A stretch of 36,358 nucleotides of DNA from Sorangium cellulosum (lineage in GTDB: Bacteria > Myxococcota_A > Polyangia > Polyangiales > Polyangiaceae), in assembly GCA_020720045.1 (NCBI GenBank), contig DYPH01000020.1:1-36358 (forward strand), read 5' to 3'. The notes under the pieces were generated by a model. That model ran no database searches. It saw only the letters and a program-made list of their open reading frames with translations, and was not told the DNA's origin. Position numbers and translations under genes: made by a program. Below, one piece after another: positions 3,161-35,160 of the stretch (position 1 is the stretch's first letter; every line of letters begins with the position of its first letter).

Positions 3161-3457
3161 TCAGTGGGGCGGGCGCCCGGCGCGCTCGTCGTCGTCGACC
3201 GAGTTCGCCAGTCCAGCGAGATCGCCGAGGCGCGCCGGGTGGTAGGGCGGGCGCGAGGTAAACGGGGCACGCGCGTCACCGCCGCGGGCCGCGACCAGGC
3301 GCGCACATGTTGCAAGGCATTGCTTTCCTTGGCAAAAACCTGTTCCAAACCCCGTGTAGCGCTTGACCGACTCCAGGTCGCGGTGGCCGCGCGCCATCGC
3401 CTCCTCCAGTTCGTGGAGGGTCACGTCTTCGCAACGGCAGACGAGCACTTTCGGCAT
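3161..3457 (-). CDS. Freestanding BFD-type [2Fe-2S] protein
   Basis: A 98-residue protein whose first 60 residues match the bacterioferritin-associated-ferredoxin-like [2Fe-2S] domain. The four expected cysteines are present as Cys7 and Cys9 (CRCED) and Cys42 and Cys47 (FCQGKQC). In other bacteria this domain is fused to, or encoded next to, FAD-dependent oxidoreductases such as amino-acid or opine dehydrogenases, where it carries electrons. No such enzyme lies nearby. The C-terminal 35 residues are low-complexity and Arg/Pro-rich. The start is nine bases after the stop of the metallo-beta-lactamase-fold gene, so the two probably form an operon. The redox partner is unknown. Confidence 0.8.
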
Positions 3458-4931: not shown

Positions 4932-5525
4932 TCAGCCGCTCTGGCTCTTCTTGAGCTCCGTCAGAACCAGCTTCGCGACCGCCTTGAGGGTGTCAAAGAC
5001 ACCGACGCCGGTACGCGCAACCCCTTCGAAGTCGGGGACTCCGGTCGGGTTGAGCATCGAACGGAGCTCCTCCACGGTGGCAACGTTCGGAAGGTCCCGC
5101 TTGTTGTACTGGATGACGTACGGGATCTTATCGAGGTTGTATCCCTGCTCGGCGAGGTTCGCCCGCAGGTTTTCCACCGACTCCAAGTTCGCTTCTGCAC
5201 GCTCGATCTGGGAGTCGGCCACGAAGACCACGCCATCGACCCCTTTGAGGATCAGCTTGCGTGAGGCATCGTAGAAGACCTGGCCAGGCACGGTGTAGAG
5301 GTGGAAACGGGTTTTAAAGCCCTTCACCTCGCCGAGCGAGAGCGGCAAGAAGTCGAAAAAAAGCGTACGCTCGGTCTCCGTCGCGAGGGAGATCATTTTC
5401 CCCTTCGCTTCCGGATTTGTACGCTCGTAAATATACTGAAGATTCGTAGTCTTCCCGCAGAGACCCGGCCCGTAATAGACGAGCTTGCAGTTGATCTCGC
5501 GCTGCATGATGTTGATGAAGCTCAT
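4932..5525 (-). CDS. mglA: Ras-like small GTPase MglA
   Basis: A 197-residue cytoplasmic GTPase closely matching Myxococcus xanthus MglA (about 195 residues). It has P-loop GPGLCGKTT at 19-27, the MglA-type switch II motif TVPGQ at 78-82 with Thr78 where most Ras proteins have Asp, and NKRD at 141-144 for guanine specificity. In M. xanthus, GTP-bound MglA marks the leading pole and drives gliding and type IV pilus polarity, and MglB stimulates its GTP hydrolysis. ATG 5525 is chosen because the protein then begins MSFIN as in M. xanthus and GAGG lies upstream; a TTG at 5558 would add 11 residues. It follows mglB by 61 bases and ends in a terminator. Confidence 0.95.
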
Positions 5526-5586
5526 GGCGGCCTCGCGGATCTCATCCGGGTTCGTCAATCACGAACGCGGTATGAGTCGAATCGGG

Positions 5587-25919: not shown

Positions 25920-27068
25920 ATGGCCAAGGCTATCCCGCTCTCGCTCATCGAAAAGCTCCCGAAGACCGACCTCCACGTCCACCTGGACGGCTCTCTTCGC
26001 CTTTCGACGATTCTCGACCTCGCCCGCGCCGGTCGCATCGAGCTTCCGGCGACGGAGGCCGCGCCGCTCGCCGCCGCGATGAACCTCGGGAAGAACTGCG
26101 GGTCGCTTGTTGAGTACTTGAAGGCGTTCGACGTCACCCTCCGGGTGATGCAGACGGCGGGAGCGCTCACGCGCATCGCCTACGAGCTTGCTGAGGACGC
26201 CGCCCGCGAGAACGTCCGTTACATGGAAGTGCGTTACGCCCCGATGCTGCACACGCAGAAGGGGTTGAAGCTCACGACGATCATTGAAGCGGTCCTCGAA
26301 GGGCTCCGTGCCGCGCAGGACAAATTTGGCATTGAATCCCAGTTGATTCTCTGCGGAATTCGCAATGTATCGCCCCAGTCTTCCCTGGAAATGGCCGAGC
26401 TTGCCGTCGCCTACAAGGGGCGTGGCGTCGTCGGTTTTGACCTCGCCGGTGCCGAGTACGACAACCCGGCGAAGCATCACAAAGCGGCATTTCAGCTCGT
26501 CCGCGACAACAACATCAACGTGACGATCCACGCCGGTGAGGCCTACGGACCGGAGTCGATTGCCCAAGCAATTCATGTGTGTGGCGCCCATCGTATCGGT
26601 CACGGTTGCCGTTTGCGTGAGAACGGCGATCTCCTTCACTACGTGAACGATCACCGGATCACCCTCGAAGCGTGCCCGTCTTCAAACGTGCAAACGGGGG
26701 CCATCCGTGACCTGCAAAGCCACCCGATCAAGCTCTACAAAGCCCTCGGTTTGCGCGTGACGGTCAATACCGACAATCGCCTCGTAACAGATACGACGGT
26801 TTCGAAAGAGCTCTGGCTCTGTCACGACCAAATGGGCTTCTCGCTCGATGACATCAAGGGCATGATCATGTCTGGCTTCAAAGCGGCATTCTTGCCCTTC
26901 CATATGAAGCAGCAGTACCTTCGCAAGGTCAGCGAAGAGCTTGCGACCTTCAACGATGACGGGCTCCCTGAGCTCGCGCCGCCGGTCGTCGACAGCACGC
27001 CGGTGGGGGCGTCACGCCGAAAGAGCGTCGCGCCGGCGCCGCTGGCGAGCGAGCAGGGAGAGTCGTGA
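25920..27068 (+). CDS. add: Adenosine deaminase
   Basis: A 382-residue zinc enzyme of the adenosine/adenine deaminase family, converting adenosine to inosine in purine salvage. KTDLHVHLDGSLR (residues 15-27) provides two zinc histidines. HAGE (His204, catalytic Glu207), HRIGHG, ACPSSNVQTG and VTVNTDN complete the active site. The last motif has Asn where many family members have a second Asp, a known variant in related adenosine deaminases. The final 35 residues are a low-complexity tail. AAGGGG lies four bases before ATG 25920. Its stop overlaps the start of the HD-domain gene. A role on aminodeoxyfutalosine in menaquinone synthesis is a less likely alternative. Confidence 0.9.
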   Translation: MAKAIPLSLIEKLPKTDLHVHLDGSLRLSTILDLARAGRIELPATEAAPLAAAMNLGKNCGSLVEYLKAFDVTLRVMQTAGALTRIAYELAEDAARENVRYMEVRYAPMLHTQKGLKLTTIIEAVLEGLRAAQDKFGIESQLILCGIRNVSPQSSLEMAELAVAYKGRGVVGFDLAGAEYDNPAKHHKAAFQLVRDNNINVTIHAGEAYGPESIAQAIHVCGAHRIGHGCRLRENGDLLHYVNDHRITLEACPSSNVQTGAIRDLQSHPIKLYKALGLRVTVNTDNRLVTDTTVSKELWLCHDQMGFSLDDIKGMIMSGFKAAFLPFHMKQQYLRKVSEELATFNDDGLPELAPPVVDSTPVGASRRKSVAPAPLASEQGES

Positions 27069-30747: not shown

Positions 30748-30834
30748 ACAACCCGGCAACCTACCCCGGTATTCACGGATTTTGCGGGAGATTCGTCGCC
30801 TCGCTCGCGCTTCTCGCAGCTATGTTCGCCGACG

Positions 30835-33129
30835 ATGAAGTCGGACCCTGAAGCGGAGACTCGCCGGAACGGTCGCCCATCTCCGGTCGCGCTCCCCGCC
30901 CGAGGATTGGCGCTCGCGACGGCGCTCCTGCTCGCGGGGGGGGCTGCTGCAACGCAGCTCGCCCTTTCGCCGCCGTGGCTCGGGTTGACGCTGGAGCGTC
31001 ACCCTGGCGCTGCGGTGATCGCTGCGGCGGTCGGGCCGTCGTCGAAAATCCCGGTCGGTACGACTTTGGTTGCCGTCGGTGGCGCCCCTCTGGATGAAAA
31101 CGACCTCATCGAAGAGCCCGACTATTTCGACACCTACCCGGAGATGGCCGCTTTCTTCGGGCGCCAATCCGACCTTGCCCGCGCCCTCGCGCAGCCGAAG
31201 GTGCGATTGACGATTCGCGACAATAAAGGTGATTTATTTTATGAAGTTACGCCTGTTCGTCGGCCGCTAGCAAGCCTGCCTGCCCTCTTCTGGTTTCCGC
31301 TCGTTTCCGGCCTCGTTGCCGCAATTCTCGGCCTCTGGGTCGCTGCGCTGCGCCCGCCGCCATCGAGCCGCAAAGGGGCGGGCCGCACCTCGAACAATCA
31401 CGCCGGGGCGATCCTTTTCGCGGCACTTGGACTCTGCATTCCCGTCTTCACGATCCCGGCGGCGATCTACGGCACGCGCGAGCTTGCGTTCTCTGGTGGG
31501 GTCTTTCGCGTGCTTTCGAGCATCAACCACATCGGGGCGCTCTCCTTCGGGATCTTTCTTCTTCTGCTATTTCTCAGCTTCCCGCGCCCAATTCTTTCTC
31601 TCAAAGCGCGCCTTGTCGTCCCGGCAATTTTCGTCCCTTGGATCCTCGCAGATGCTCTTCGAATTGCACCCAATCAGAGCTGGGGATCGCGAATTCCTAC
31701 CATGCTGGAGATGCTTGGTGCGATCGTCGCAGCGGTCGTCGCTTGGATCGTTGCAAAGAAGGATCCCGCTGCCCGCGCGACGCTCCGTTGGTTCGGTGTT
31801 TCGGTCCTACTCGGGGCATCGCTCTTCGTGTTTTCGACGGTCGGGACTTCGTTTCTTGGAGGAATTCCAGAACTTCCGCAGGGGTACGCCTTCGGGTTTT
31901 TTCTGTTGATGTTCGTCGGACTCGCGATCGGCGTCCGCCGTCATGCCCTCTTTGAACTCAACACGTGGTCTTACCGTATTCTCTTTGGAGTCGTCGGTGC
32001 GATCGCGCTCGTCGCCCTCGATGCACTGCTCGCGCTGCTGCTACCGCGCAACCGTGTCGTCGCCTCCTCGGCGTCGCTCCTTGCTGTCGGTCTTGTCTAC
32101 TTTCCGGTTCGAAATTGGCTGTGGGGTCGCATTGTGCGTCAGAAGACCATCGATGCCGATGCGCTCTTTCGCGATCTGTTGGCGGTTACGTTTGCGGCGA
32201 CGAGCATGGAGGTCGCAGAGCGATGGCAGGGGCTTCTGCGGAAGACTTTTGACGCCGAAACCCAAGTGATTCGTGAAGAAGAAGCGCCCGAAGAAGCCTC
32301 TGACCGGGTCCTCCTTGTCGACGAAGGGACGGCTCTCGTGCTCCCGCCTCTCGGAAATTCTCAAATTATTTCAGCGCTCTATCTTCGCTACCCGTGGAAG
32401 GGGAGTGGCCTCTTTGGCGAAGAGCATCGGGCTCTGGTGGAGGCGGCGTGGCGCTTTCTTGGGCACGCCCTCGCGGCCCGCGACTCCTTCGCGCGCGGCG
32501 CCCGTGAGGAGCGTGCACGCATTGCGGCCGACCTTCATGACGATGTCGGTGCCCGTCTGCTCACAAGTCTCCATGACGACAACCTCACCGAGACGCGCGC
32601 GACGGTGCGTACCGCCATTGGAGAAATGCGCGGAATCGTGAATGAACTCGTCGGAAAAACCCAGAGTCTTTCGACCCTCGAGGCCGACCTCCGCCACGAG
32701 ACCTTCACCCGTCTGGAGGCAGCAGGCCTATCGGTCAGATGGCCTATCTCTTTAAACACACTTGGGAATAGTTCGGATCCCGAGGGGGAGCCTCACGTCT
32801 CCTACCAGTTCTCGCGTCACCTCACGTCGATGCTGCGCGAAGCCCTTTCAAATGTGATTCGCCATGCGCGGGCGACGTCCGCCGAGGTGACTTGGTCCCC
32901 GGCGGACGGGCAGCTCGTTGTTGCCGTTGCCGACGACGGCCGCGGTCTCCCCGGCGGCGAGGCATCCACGTCGACGGTCGGCGGAAACGGCGTCGCAGGC
33001 CTTCGCCGCCGCGCTTCGCTCCTTGGGGGGGCGGTGACGATTCGCCCTCGCGCCGGCGCCGGGGAAGCAGGTACCATCGTAGAAATTGTGCTCCCCCTCG
33101 CGACCGTCCGCCACCGTTCTGAAGTTTAA
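30835..33129 (+). CDS. Multi-TM sensor histidine kinase with PDZ-like sensor, NarL/LiaS type
   Basis: A 764-residue membrane kinase. One N-terminal helix (about 24-44) is followed by a periplasmic PDZ-like segment (about 50-145; PPWLGLTLERH, VPVGTTLVAVGGAPLDENDL). Then come about nine hydrophobic helices between 150 and 415. A coiled linker leads to the HisKA_3 box ERARIAADLHDDVGARLL with phosphoacceptor His568, then N-box LREALSNVIRHA, DDGRG, and GNGVAGLRRRA. This kinase class pairs with LuxR-type regulators, and one starts three bases after its stop. ATG 30835 is chosen because the first helix follows directly; no good ribosome site is visible. The PDZ-like domain suggests sensing of peptides or envelope stress, by inference. 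Confidence 0.85.
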   Translation: MKSDPEAETRRNGRPSPVALPARGLALATALLLAGGAAATQLALSPPWLGLTLERHPGAAVIAAAVGPSSKIPVGTTLVAVGGAPLDENDLIEEPDYFDTYPEMAAFFGRQSDLARALAQPKVRLTIRDNKGDLFYEVTPVRRPLASLPALFWFPLVSGLVAAILGLWVAALRPPPSSRKGAGRTSNNHAGAILFAALGLCIPVFTIPAAIYGTRELAFSGGVFRVLSSINHIGALSFGIFLLLLFLSFPRPILSLKARLVVPAIFVPWILADALRIAPNQSWGSRIPTMLEMLGAIVAAVVAWIVAKKDPAARATLRWFGVSVLLGASLFVFSTVGTSFLGGIPELPQGYAFGFFLLMFVGLAIGVRRHALFELNTWSYRILFGVVGAIALVALDALLALLLPRNRVVASSASLLAVGLVYFPVRNWLWGRIVRQKTIDADALFRDLLAVTFAATSMEVAERWQGLLRKTFDAETQVIREEEAPEEASDRVLLVDEGTALVLPPLGNSQIISALYLRYPWKGSGLFGEEHRALVEAAWRFLGHALAARDSFARGAREERARIAADLHDDVGARLLTSLHDDNLTETRATVRTAIGEMRGIVNELVGKTQSLSTLEADLRHETFTRLEAAGLSVRWPISLNTLGNSSDPEGEPHVSYQFSRHLTSMLREALSNVIRHARATSAEVTWSPADGQLVVAVADDGRGLPGGEASTSTVGGNGVAGLRRRASLLGGAVTIRPRAGAGEAGTIVEIVLPLATVRHRSEV

Positions 33130-33132
33130 ACC

Positions 33133-33813
33133 ATGAGCCGTTTTCGACGTGCCTTGCTGGTCGAGGACCACCTGGCAACGCGCCAAAATCTTCGTCGCCT
33201 CGTCGAAAAGGCCTTTGAAGGTGTCGTCGTCGACGAGGCTGAGGACCTTGCGAGTGGTAGGCAGGCGGTGCTCAACGTCCGCTACGACCTGGCCCTCGTC
33301 GACCTACGGTTTCCCGACGGTTCCGGCTTCGATCTCCTCCGAACGCTTCGCGAATTTCAACCGGATGTGCTGGCGATCGTGGCGACGATCTACGACGATG
33401 ATGACCACCTTTTCTCGGCCATCGCCGCCGGTGCCGATGGCTATCTTCTGAAGGAGCAATCGCCCGATCTCCTCCTCGCTCATTTGCGAAATCTTTCCGA
33501 GGGCGTACCTGCTCTCTCCCCCGCCGTTGCGCGAAAGATGCTCGCGTATTTCCGAAGGACGCCCGTCTCCGAGCCGCCCCCGTCGATGCGCGAGATACTT
33601 GGCACGGGGGCGCAATCACCGCCGCTCCTTTCCCCACGGGAGACGGACGTTCTTTCGCTCATTGGGCGCGGCCTGCGGGGCGGCGAGGTGGCACAAATGC
33701 TGGCAATTACGGAGAATACCGTCGCCGGCTATGTGAAAGATATTTACCGAAAGTTGAACATCTCGTCACGCGCCGAGGCGGCTCTGGAGGCCCGTCGACG
33801 CGGGCTCGTTTGA
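33133..33813 (+). CDS. LuxR/NarL-family response regulator
   Basis: A 226-residue DNA-binding regulator. The receiver spans residues 1-125 with the acidic pair in VEDH (11-12), phosphoacceptor Asp57 in LVDLRFPDG, Thr89 region IVATIYDDD and Lys107 in YLLKEQ. The C-terminal LuxR-type helix-turn-helix (about 162-226) has LLSPRETDVLSLIGRGLRGGEVAQML and ENTVAGYVKDIYRKLN, the typical pattern. It is three bases after the kinase gene, so it is the cognate regulator. The four-lipoprotein array begins 140 bases downstream on the same strand and is a candidate target, though this is inference. Confidence 0.92.
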   Translation: MSRFRRALLVEDHLATRQNLRRLVEKAFEGVVVDEAEDLASGRQAVLNVRYDLALVDLRFPDGSGFDLLRTLREFQPDVLAIVATIYDDDDHLFSAIAAGADGYLLKEQSPDLLLAHLRNLSEGVPALSPAVARKMLAYFRRTPVSEPPPSMREILGTGAQSPPLLSPRETDVLSLIGRGLRGGEVAQMLAITENTVAGYVKDIYRKLNISSRAEAALEARRRGLV

Positions 33814-33953
33814 TCGGGCAAAGTGCTTCTGTCCCCCCTGAATCGGGGGTGGTGGTCGTCGCCCAGGTGGGTTTTTCTCCGCGATCGCTCAGCGCGTGCT
33901 GAGCCGCCCATCTGGGCGAACCGTCGAAGAGATCCCCGGGGAGATCGTAGATC
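33814..33953 (+). promoter_or_regulatory. Hairpin-rich leader of the lipoprotein array
   Basis: This 140-base gap contains several perfect hairpins: CCCCC/GGGGG (33834-33838 with 33845-33849), GCTCAGC/GCTGAGC (33887-33893 with 33898-33904) and CGCCC/GGGCG (33905-33909 with 33914-33918). Just before the start, ATCCCC can pair with GGGGA, masking the ribosome site GGGGAGA. A T5 run at 33872-33876 follows a weak stem. This could be an attenuating leader or simply a terminator plus structured 5' UTR. Confidence 0.45.
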
Positions 33954-34190
33954 ATGAATCCACTGAAAATTCGCCGCGCGCTCGGTGCGATGGCGCTGCT
34001 GGTGCCGCTCGCGACGGCGACCGGATGCACGCCAGCACCGAAGCTAGTGTCTCACGTCACCGGCGCTCGCGATCAGATGAAGTTTCTCGTCGTACAGGGC
34101 GGAAATCAAGAAGTCGTGAAGTGCCAAGTCAATCCGGATGGCTCGCTGGCTCAATGCCGAAAGCTCGCCGTAATCCTTCAGGATGAGTGA
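33954..34190 (+). CDS. Small lipoprotein 1 of the four-gene array
   Basis: A 78-residue predicted lipoprotein with a basic start, hydrophobic stretch and lipid-attachment Cys25 (ATATGC). The short mature part has a central segment KFLVVQGGNQEV and the two-cysteine motif CQVNPDG-x4-C (Cys57, Cys68), which recurs in variant form in the three following proteins. The likely location is the outer membrane. GGGGAGA lies about 14 bases before the ATG and may be partly masked by pairing. No named family is recognised. The next gene starts ten bases after the stop. Confidence 0.75.
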   Translation: MNPLKIRRALGAMALLVPLATATGCTPAPKLVSHVTGARDQMKFLVVQGGNQEVVKCQVNPDGSLAQCRKLAVILQDE

Positions 34191-34200
34191 GAGGAATATT

Positions 34201-34497
34201 ATGAATATCCGCAAGCTCGCTCTCCTCGGAACGTTCGTTCTTGGGCTCGCCACCTCCGGCTGCGTTACCCGCCGAATCATTGTTTTTCAAGACAATGCGA
34301 AGGCGCCGCTCACCGCGATGGAAGTTCAGAAGACTCAGAACTTTCTGTTCTACGCGCGTATTACCCACCAGTTTTACGTTTGTACGGACACCGACAAGGT
34401 CCTCGATTGCACGCTCGCTTGCAGTGCGCCGGGCGACGACTTGTCCTGCCCGCAGGCGACTGTGGACGGCAACAGTGTCTCCACCAATTACCGCTGA
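34201..34497 (+). CDS. Small lipoprotein 2 of the four-gene array
   Basis: A 98-residue predicted lipoprotein with Cys21 in LATSGC as the lipid-attachment site. The mature part has QNFLFYARITHQFYVC, then Cys61, Cys70, Cys74 and Cys83, suggesting two disulfides in the periplasm or at the cell surface. The pattern L-F-x-Y-x-I before the first cysteine also appears in protein 3. ATG 34201 is preferred over an upstream in-frame start at 34183 because GAGGAA lies five bases before it and the lipoprotein signal follows directly. Function unknown. Confidence 0.8.
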   Translation: MNIRKLALLGTFVLGLATSGCVTRRIIVFQDNAKAPLTAMEVQKTQNFLFYARITHQFYVCTDTDKVLDCTLACSAPGDDLSCPQATVDGNSVSTNYR

Positions 34498-34512
34498 ACG
34501 AAGAGGAGCATC

Positions 34513-34794
34513 ATGAAACGTATTTCGCTCGCGCTTCTCGCCGCCGCGGCGTCCACATCGATCGCGTGTGGCCCCCCGCCCAAGGTTCTCGTTCACCAAG
34601 AGTTCTTCCCGCCGGCCCTCGGCGAAGACAAAATCGCGCAAGAGAGCATGCAGTTAAGCGGTCAAAGCACCGACAAACAGCGTCTCTTCAACTACTCGAT
34701 CCGCATCTGCGACGTGAACCCGCAAGGGGTCGCAAAGCCGACGTGCAAAGAGACGCTGATCCTCGAAAACGTCAGTCCGAAGACCATCTACTGA
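34513..34794 (+). CDS. Small lipoprotein 3 of the four-gene array
   Basis: A 93-residue predicted lipoprotein with attachment Cys19 in STSIAC. The mature part includes KQRLFNYSIRICDVNPQG and a second cysteine at 78 (Cys66-x11-Cys78), the same C-x-V-N-P core as protein 1. It has no membrane segment after the signal and no enzyme motif. GAGGAG lies four bases before ATG 34513, and the gene follows the previous stop by 15 bases, so it is part of the same operon. Function unknown. Confidence 0.8.
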   Translation: MKRISLALLAAAASTSIACGPPPKVLVHQEFFPPALGEDKIAQESMQLSGQSTDKQRLFNYSIRICDVNPQGVAKPTCKETLILENVSPKTIY

Positions 34795-34802
34795 GGCACG
34801 CC

Positions 34803-35066
34803 ATGAAAAAGATCGCATTTGCGCTTTTCGCGCTGGCTGCACTCTCGGGATGCAGCGTCACTTCGACCTACCGGACCGCCGGCGGCTGGCGAAAGAACGC
34901 CGACGGAAAGCCGGTCCTCTATCAGACCTATCTCCAGGCAACTTGTGGCTATTTCGGCTGCTCGGACGAGGACTCGCACATGAAGCGGTGCACCCTCAAT
35001 CCGGACAACACGATGGTCTGCGTCGCCGACCCGGAAGCCGATCGGATTCTCAAAAAAGAGAATTGA
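34803..35066 (+). CDS. Small lipoprotein 4 of the four-gene array
   Basis: An 87-residue predicted lipoprotein with attachment Cys17 in ALSGC. It has Cys48 and Cys53 (CGYFGC) and the core motif RCTLNPDNTMVC (Cys63, Cys73), again C-x-L-N-P as in proteins 1 and 3. GAGG lies five bases before ATG 34803, which follows the previous stop by eight bases. The longer open frame that begins at 34380 runs through proteins 2 and 3 in another phase and is not used. A strong terminator closes the operon. Function unknown. Confidence 0.8.
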   Translation: MKKIAFALFALAALSGCSVTSTYRTAGGWRKNADGKPVLYQTYLQATCGYFGCSDEDSHMKRCTLNPDNTMVCVADPEADRILKKEN

Positions 35067-35095
35067 TTCGTCACTGATCGACGGGGGAGAAGGAG

Positions 35096-35130
35096 AGGGG
35101 CAAGATCGCGCGGCGATCGGGCCCCTTTTT
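35096..35130 (+). terminator. Strong intrinsic terminator of the lipoprotein array
   Basis: GGGGC (35097-35101) pairs with GCCCC (35121-35125), enclosing GATCGC/GCGATC (35104-35109 with 35113-35118) and loop GCG, with small symmetric internal loops, followed by TTTTT (35126-35130). It lies 30 bases after the stop of lipoprotein 4. Confidence 0.88.
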
Positions 35131-35160
35131 CATGGGTTTTCCAATTGACCATGCGCTCGC

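Follow-up and report, generated by a model that had tools for sequence, protein, structure and literature searches.

The window analysed here, a stretch of 36,358 nucleotides from Sorangium cellulosum (contig DYPH01000020.1), carries on its forward strand four consecutive genes for small lipoproteins of 78-98 residues, as a sequence-only reading had proposed and as the open reading frames at 33954-35066 and the reading of their lipoboxes bear out. LP1 (33954-34190, +) encodes 78 aa, with the mature part starting at Cys25 and the core CQVNPDGSLAQC; LP2 (34201-34497, +) encodes 98 aa, mature from Cys21 and with four further cysteines; LP3 (34513-34794, +) encodes 93 aa, mature from Cys19, with a cysteine pair at 66/78 and a predicted four-strand meander; and LP4 (34803-35066, +) encodes 87 aa, mature from Cys17, with the core CTLNPDNTMVC and a second cysteine pair, which according to the alignment is present in a part of the LP4 family only. 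The spacers LP1-LP2, LP2-LP3 and LP3-LP4 measure 10, 15 and 8 bases. Purine-rich ribosome sites were seen for LP2 (AGAGGA), LP3 (AGAGGAG) and LP4 (GAGG), with a weaker one for LP1, in line with the proposal of a separate site per gene. An N-terminal signal peptide with lipobox cysteine, the hallmark of bacterial lipoproteins, was identified by reading in all four and recurs in the aligned relatives; the Pfam model LPAM_1 scored above cut-off for LP4 alone. The genome holds a single copy each of LP1, LP2, LP3 and LP4, hereafter the quartet.

Upstream of the array lie a sensor histidine kinase gene (30790-33129, +, start approximate), the product of which has several membrane spans by reading, and a gene for a LuxR-type response regulator (33133-33813, +), a possible regulator of the quartet, which ends 140 bases before LP1; the HisKA_3/HATPase_c and Response_reg + GerE domains confirmed the earlier assignment of this pair. 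The intergenic leader between regulator and LP1 (33814-33953, +) is modestly structured, with a fold z of -1.78 and 11 of 200 shuffles as good, and blastn did not find it ahead of LP1 in nine other quartet loci (six of them Polyangium-type); the structured leader previously ascribed to the array is thus weak and unshared with these nine. Its strong terminator fared better: an intrinsic-terminator-like hairpin with T run (35092-35130, +) follows LP4, and the fold of 35067-35140 reached -31.1 kcal/mol with a z of -2.37 and 4 of 200 shuffles as good, though a mechanical terminator scanner did not list it. A gene for an SCP-2-domain protein lies downstream of the array. The six Polyangium-type loci L021-L026 have a common upstream stretch, AAAACGTTGACATGGACGTAAAAGTTGGC, with a TTGACA box and two differences in L025; blastn did not find this stretch in the leader of the window.

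Relatives of the quartet were collected by sequence searches, and a total of 44 loci was read, which are not 44 independent cases because they include six close Polyangium-type quartets and the near-identical pair L063/L089. The genes are arranged as LP1-LP2-LP3-LP4, on one strand and in fixed order, in 41 of the 44; two loci (L072, L096) break off after LP2 because the contig ends there, and one is a broken remnant. In L076 and L077, the ORF lying between LP2 and LP4 was called as LP3 on reading and not by profile, and for L097 the automatic table had put LP3 in the LP4 ORF although this locus has a separate LP3 ORF. An LP4 search of an order sample of 144 genomes matched 18 at E ≤ 0.01, of which 12 have verified quartets; the other six (E 0.001-0.01) were dropped, as their loci of 2-3 kb gave no match to any of the LP1-LP4 profiles. 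Among 377 genomes sampled from the window's phylum, the LP1, LP2 and LP3 profiles matched 29, 26 and 25 genomes, one of the last weakly, with 24 genomes common to LP1 and LP2 and 24 common to LP1 and LP3. The LP1-positive genomes yielded 31 loci, 29 complete and two cut (L072, L096). Quartets or quartet starts were present in 24 of the 26 LP2-positive genomes; two LP2-only matches (G412, G416) had no quartet on reading and were dropped. In five genomes with an LP1 but no LP2 match (G154, G162, G170, G203, G224), LP2 was found by reading directly behind LP1, so that their missing match is explained by the reach of the LP2 profile.

Scanning genome contigs with LP3 returned 13 loci, all with the quartet and nine already found by other searches; hosts include Polyangium fumosum DSM 14668 and other Polyangium. 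A second group of 195 genomes, which we take to be another phylum because of its size against the 377 genomes that the window's phylum gave, themselves drawn from a larger group, contained LP1 matches in eight genomes; the quartet was present in three of three genomes of one class, and the loci L107, L108 and L109 are also complete. Apart from weak matches, of which G440 (LP3 phylum search) and G524 (second group) lie outside the loci read, the quartet was recovered whichever of LP1, LP2, LP3 or LP4 served as bait. It is patchy in occurrence and all-or-none in the loci read, and its order is the same in very distant myxobacteria. With LP4 as query, tblastn gave no match in plasmids, and one LP3 pattern had no match in viral contigs. 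At L110 (3773-4379), a locus of the second genome group, a quartet remnant has disrupted LP1 and LP2, with LP3 and LP4 not found there, due to decay or an assembly error.

The genes flanking the quartet vary between loci, which defines the quartet itself as the unit and supports the earlier view of the array as self-contained. Among 41 flanking proteins no Pfam family occurred more than three times, the most frequent being PDZ (L028, L087 and one more protein). An acyl-CoA dehydrogenase gene lies directly upstream in L028 (2841-3992), L069 (2590-3843) and L073 (4766-6004) and about 2 kb from the quartet in L071; it was rejected as a part of the unit, as it belongs to a large family and was seen beside no other quartet.

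The link to the kinase/LuxR pair, proposed on the basis of adjacency in the window, found some support. In L109, of the second genome group, close relatives of both adjoin the quartet and face it (kinase 45% identical over 720 aa, regulator 52%), and the regulator there is the best match of the window's regulator in genome G521. In L087, a HisKA_3/HATPase_c kinase and a LuxR regulator lie on the other side of the quartet in opposite orientation; the regulator of this locus shares 33% identity with that of the window, and the L087 kinase, too far from the window's for a direct search to match, has a match (6e-7) in the kinase of the sister genome of the window. These two loci overturned a previous judgement, based on tblastn against 11 order-level loci without a match outside the window, that the link was absent. 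On the other side, 38 of 41 loci searched had no relative of the window's kinase or regulator, a soft absence, as the fetched stretches are of unequal length and some stop close to the quartet; L088, a relative of L087, has no such pair within 12 kb; and G088 and G062 have kinase and regulator but no quartet in the fetched stretch or in the LP1 search. The sensor part of the kinase is rare and was found by single-sequence search in 4 of 377 genomes, namely the window's, G092, G088 and G062. Absence of the quartet in G092, of the window's genus, is uninformative because the contig stops at the kinase end and the assembly has no close regulator match. Between window and L109, LP2 is 34% identical and LP1, LP3 and LP4 gave no match; with the quartet far more diverged than the kinase, a recent joint transfer is rejected. 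In our view the link probably exists in some lineages and is dispensable in most. Between the presumed membrane spans 1 and 2, the window kinase has a domain (30955-31299) without Pfam match; at the equivalent place in the L087 kinase a PDZ match, weak and below cut-off, was obtained, and Pfam revealed no PDZ in the window kinase.

Three of the four lipoproteins had been described as sharing a two-cysteine N-P motif, and the other as having a related cysteine pair. The three N-P motifs with the cysteine spacings then quoted are present in the window (CQVNPDGSLAQC, CDVNPQGVAKPTC and CTLNPDNTMVC), but N-P is mostly absent from the relatives (LP1 2/30, LP2 0/27, LP3 1/26, LP4 6/29), in which it is the spaced cysteine pair that is conserved: C-x10-C in 27/30 LP1, C-x8-C in 27/27 LP2, C-x9 to x11-C in 26/26 LP3 and C-x9-C in 27/29 LP4. 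These sets take in the LP4 portions of the three fused proteins and exclude four rows missed by the lipobox pattern (LP2 of L028, L064 and L072; LP3 of L029). An Asp occurs in the turn between the cysteines in 23/30 LP1, 18/27 LP2, 5/26 LP3 and 24/29 LP4. What marks the family is the near-fixed cysteine spacing, which in all but LP3 is often accompanied by an Asp in the turn.

Kinship among the four was assessed by profile comparison. With signal peptides included, hhalign gave 94.8% for LP1-LP3, 93.3% for LP3-LP4 and 73% over 45 columns for LP1-LP4, and aligned scarcely anything beyond the signal for LP1-LP2, LP2-LP3 and LP2-LP4; likewise with the signal peptide included, the LP1 profile matches an LP4 (G167, E 4e-6) and the LP1 of the window matches an LP4 directly (L060, E 5e-5). 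For the mature domains of LP1, LP3 and LP4, hhalign probabilities were 11-42% only; the real scores of LP1-LP3, LP1-LP4 and LP3-LP4 were each reached by 0 of 120 column-shuffled controls, and with the cysteine columns fixed and a wider alignment by 1, 0 and 0 of 120, respectively. By these profile scores LP1, LP3 and LP4 are shown to be homologous without the signal peptide. The mature LP2 profile stayed at noise, with 67, 32 and 9 of 120 controls reaching its score against LP1, LP3 and LP4, and 47, 20 and 15 of 120 with cysteine columns fixed. Of the divergent tandem duplication of a paired-cysteine hairpin protein envisaged by the sequence-only reading, the part concerning LP1, LP3 and LP4 thus stood, while that concerning LP2 found no backing at the profile level.

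Structure prediction was run on single proteins with AlphaFold2 for LP3 (11 sequences; best pLDDT 86, five models 79-86) and LP2 (12 sequences; best pLDDT 72, five models 42-72). The predicted strands are 6-14, 21-33, 39-50 and 56-69 in LP3, and 2-11, 17-27, 32-44 and 47-52 plus two short later ones in LP2. Both models show the same four-strand order with the cysteine pair across the last hairpin; the predicted LP2 fold is consistent with a shared origin and too generic as proof of it. The predicted strands had no significant one-sided hydrophobic pattern, so that the sequence gives no sign of burial against a partner.

That the proteins belong to no recognised family was borne out by a Pfam/NCBIfam scan of 94 members at E ≤ 0.01, in which no Pfam family was hit by more than one member and no NCBIfam family by more than two. 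For LP1-LP4 of the window, there was no Pfam match beyond the lipobox model and no NCBIfam match above cut-off. In PHROGs only LP4 had matches, all weak (E 0.069 or worse), and hmmsearch against the PDB with the LP2 and LP3 profiles gave 0 matches at E ≤ 1. The YgdI/YgdR family (NF033216) resembles the quartet in comprising small lipoproteins and weakly matches residues 4-38 of LP4; this match, however, covers the lipobox plus a short stretch, with 19 bits against a cut-off of 42, and 2 of the 94 members match at E ≤ 0.01 (best E 0.0009). Membership was rejected, and to our knowledge a quartet is not a feature of this family. Foldseek with the LP2 and LP3 models found no match at E ≤ 0.001. 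The best VIA matches (best Z = 5.1 and 5.8), which include NTF2-like, Pur-alpha and other sheets, are below the level that would mean more than a common arrangement, and were treated as a common shape; some of the best chains (Z 4.0-5.8) we take to be beta-propellers. Both predicted structures do form a four-strand antiparallel meander like that of a beta-propeller blade, a very common shape. Multi-lipoprotein envelope complexes as such are familiar; the novelty lies in the protein families and in the quartet, and the literature searched, at the level of titles and abstract openings, showed nothing naming it.

With regard to the cellular place, M. xanthus lipoproteins of the inner membrane are marked by Lys at +2 and those of the extracellular matrix by Ala at +7, according to an excerpt of PMC3222651. 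Among the 112 mature rows used, 0 have Lys +2 and 2 have Ala +7; counted in are three LP4 halves of fusion proteins, which lack their own lipobox, and a few rows in which the first mature residue is uncertain. By this rule, which comes from another species, we infer that the four lipoproteins would reside in the outer membrane.

In L065 (4915-5433), L070 (3413-3955) and L075 (1214-1762), LP3 and LP4 form a single protein with one lipid anchor, which would suggest contact between the two. Two genomes have two quartets each, one fused and one unfused: G265 (L070, L098) and G304 (L075, L077). A tree of the joined cores mostly tracks host families (f28, perhaps Bradymonadales-like; f32; f38 with f48; f1), the exceptions being L063/L089 and the cut L072, and thereby points to an old, mostly vertical descent with much loss. 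The L063/L089 quartet groups with f38/f48, yet G109 is assigned to f1, the family of the window; a transfer is possible.

From this conservation we consider it an evenly balanced proposition that the four are subunits of one outer-membrane lipoprotein complex. The four genes would form one transcription unit for a single hetero-oligomeric complex tethered to the outer membrane through four lipid tails; the mature subunits, of about 55-80 residues each, would be four-strand antiparallel meanders, each with its last hairpin pinned by a presumed disulfide; three subunits, probably all four, would stem from an old tandem duplication and have then taken fixed, non-interchangeable places in the complex; and in some lineages the neighbouring membrane sensor kinase and LuxR-type regulator would control the quartet. 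A complex fits the fixed order, the all-or-none presence, the LP3-LP4 fusions, the single copy in the window's genome and the changing neighbours better than four loosely related proteins do. As to its role, our guess, held with less than even confidence, is a structural or sensing collar or body at the periplasmic face of the outer membrane. With its order kept across two large genome groups, the quartet must have a selected function. If the proposal is true, bacteria noted for complex surface behaviour would possess a new envelope complex, in some of them perhaps served by a sensor system of its own, and since the quartet is small enough for reconstitution in E. coli, the question is directly testable.

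Co-occurrence of the four also fits proteins that serve one process without touching. Thus it is possible, though rather unlikely, that they are independent lipoproteins co-transcribed in one envelope-stress or nutrient response and held together by shared two-component switching: such an operon would be of an ordinary kind, and the window, L109 and L087 each have a sensor kinase/LuxR pair next to the quartet, but the order is kept even though 38 of 41 loci searched are without a relative of the window's pair, and the fusions suggest that LP3 and LP4 touch. HisKA_3 kinase and GerE regulator, the make-up of NarL/LuxR-type two-component systems, are found in the pairs of the window and L087, with the L109 kinase likewise; for these systems, titles and abstract openings in the literature searched yielded no pairing of such a kinase with this quartet. 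More doubtful is a function as surface or secreted lipoproteins for cell-cell contact in adhesion, kin recognition or predation, which the patchy distribution, the long acidic LP2 tails in several f28 members and the presence of Polyangium among the nameable hosts would suit; the cores, however, are short with well-kept invariant cysteines, Ala at +7, which marks matrix lipoproteins in M. xanthus, appears in just the two rows of 112, and the tree mostly follows the host families. That four unrelated small lipoproteins became neighbours by chance and are alike through signal peptides and cysteine pairs is barely credible: hhalign with signals aligns little else for LP1-LP2, LP2-LP3 and LP2-LP4, but the quartet is kept in 41 of 44 loci, and mature LP1, LP3 and LP4 beat cysteine-fixed shuffles, bar 1 in 120 for LP1-LP3.

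One elaboration of the complex appears highly unlikely as a whole: four different single 'blades', one from each gene, would assemble 1:1:1:1 as a ring or propeller-like body tethered to the membrane, the completeness of which the neighbouring kinase would read via an outward PDZ-like domain binding free C-terminal tails (LP2 N-x-R, LP3 S/T-x-Y). It draws on the meander in both modelled subunits, one gene per place in fixed order, the LP3-LP4 fusions, the weak PDZ match in L087 and the tails, N-x-R ending 15/27 LP2 rows and S/T-x-Y 14/26 LP3 rows. Against it, the PDZ is below cut-off in L087 and unseen in the window kinase, and families f28 and f32 are without these tails. Homo-oligomeric beta-propellers assemble from building blocks of one to six blades, according to an excerpt of PMC6805158; the likeness is that of sub-domain four-strand units made whole by assembly, but the propellers described there consist of identical WD40 blade copies, whereas the quartet comprises four different lipoproteins and its ring is hypothetical.

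Elsewhere in the window, the gene at 4935-5558 (-) encodes what we take to be an MglA-type gliding GTPase look-alike, with no Pfam match at E ≤ 1e-5. An adenosine deaminase (25920-27065, +) and a BFD-like [2Fe-2S] protein (3164-3457, -) are ordinary.
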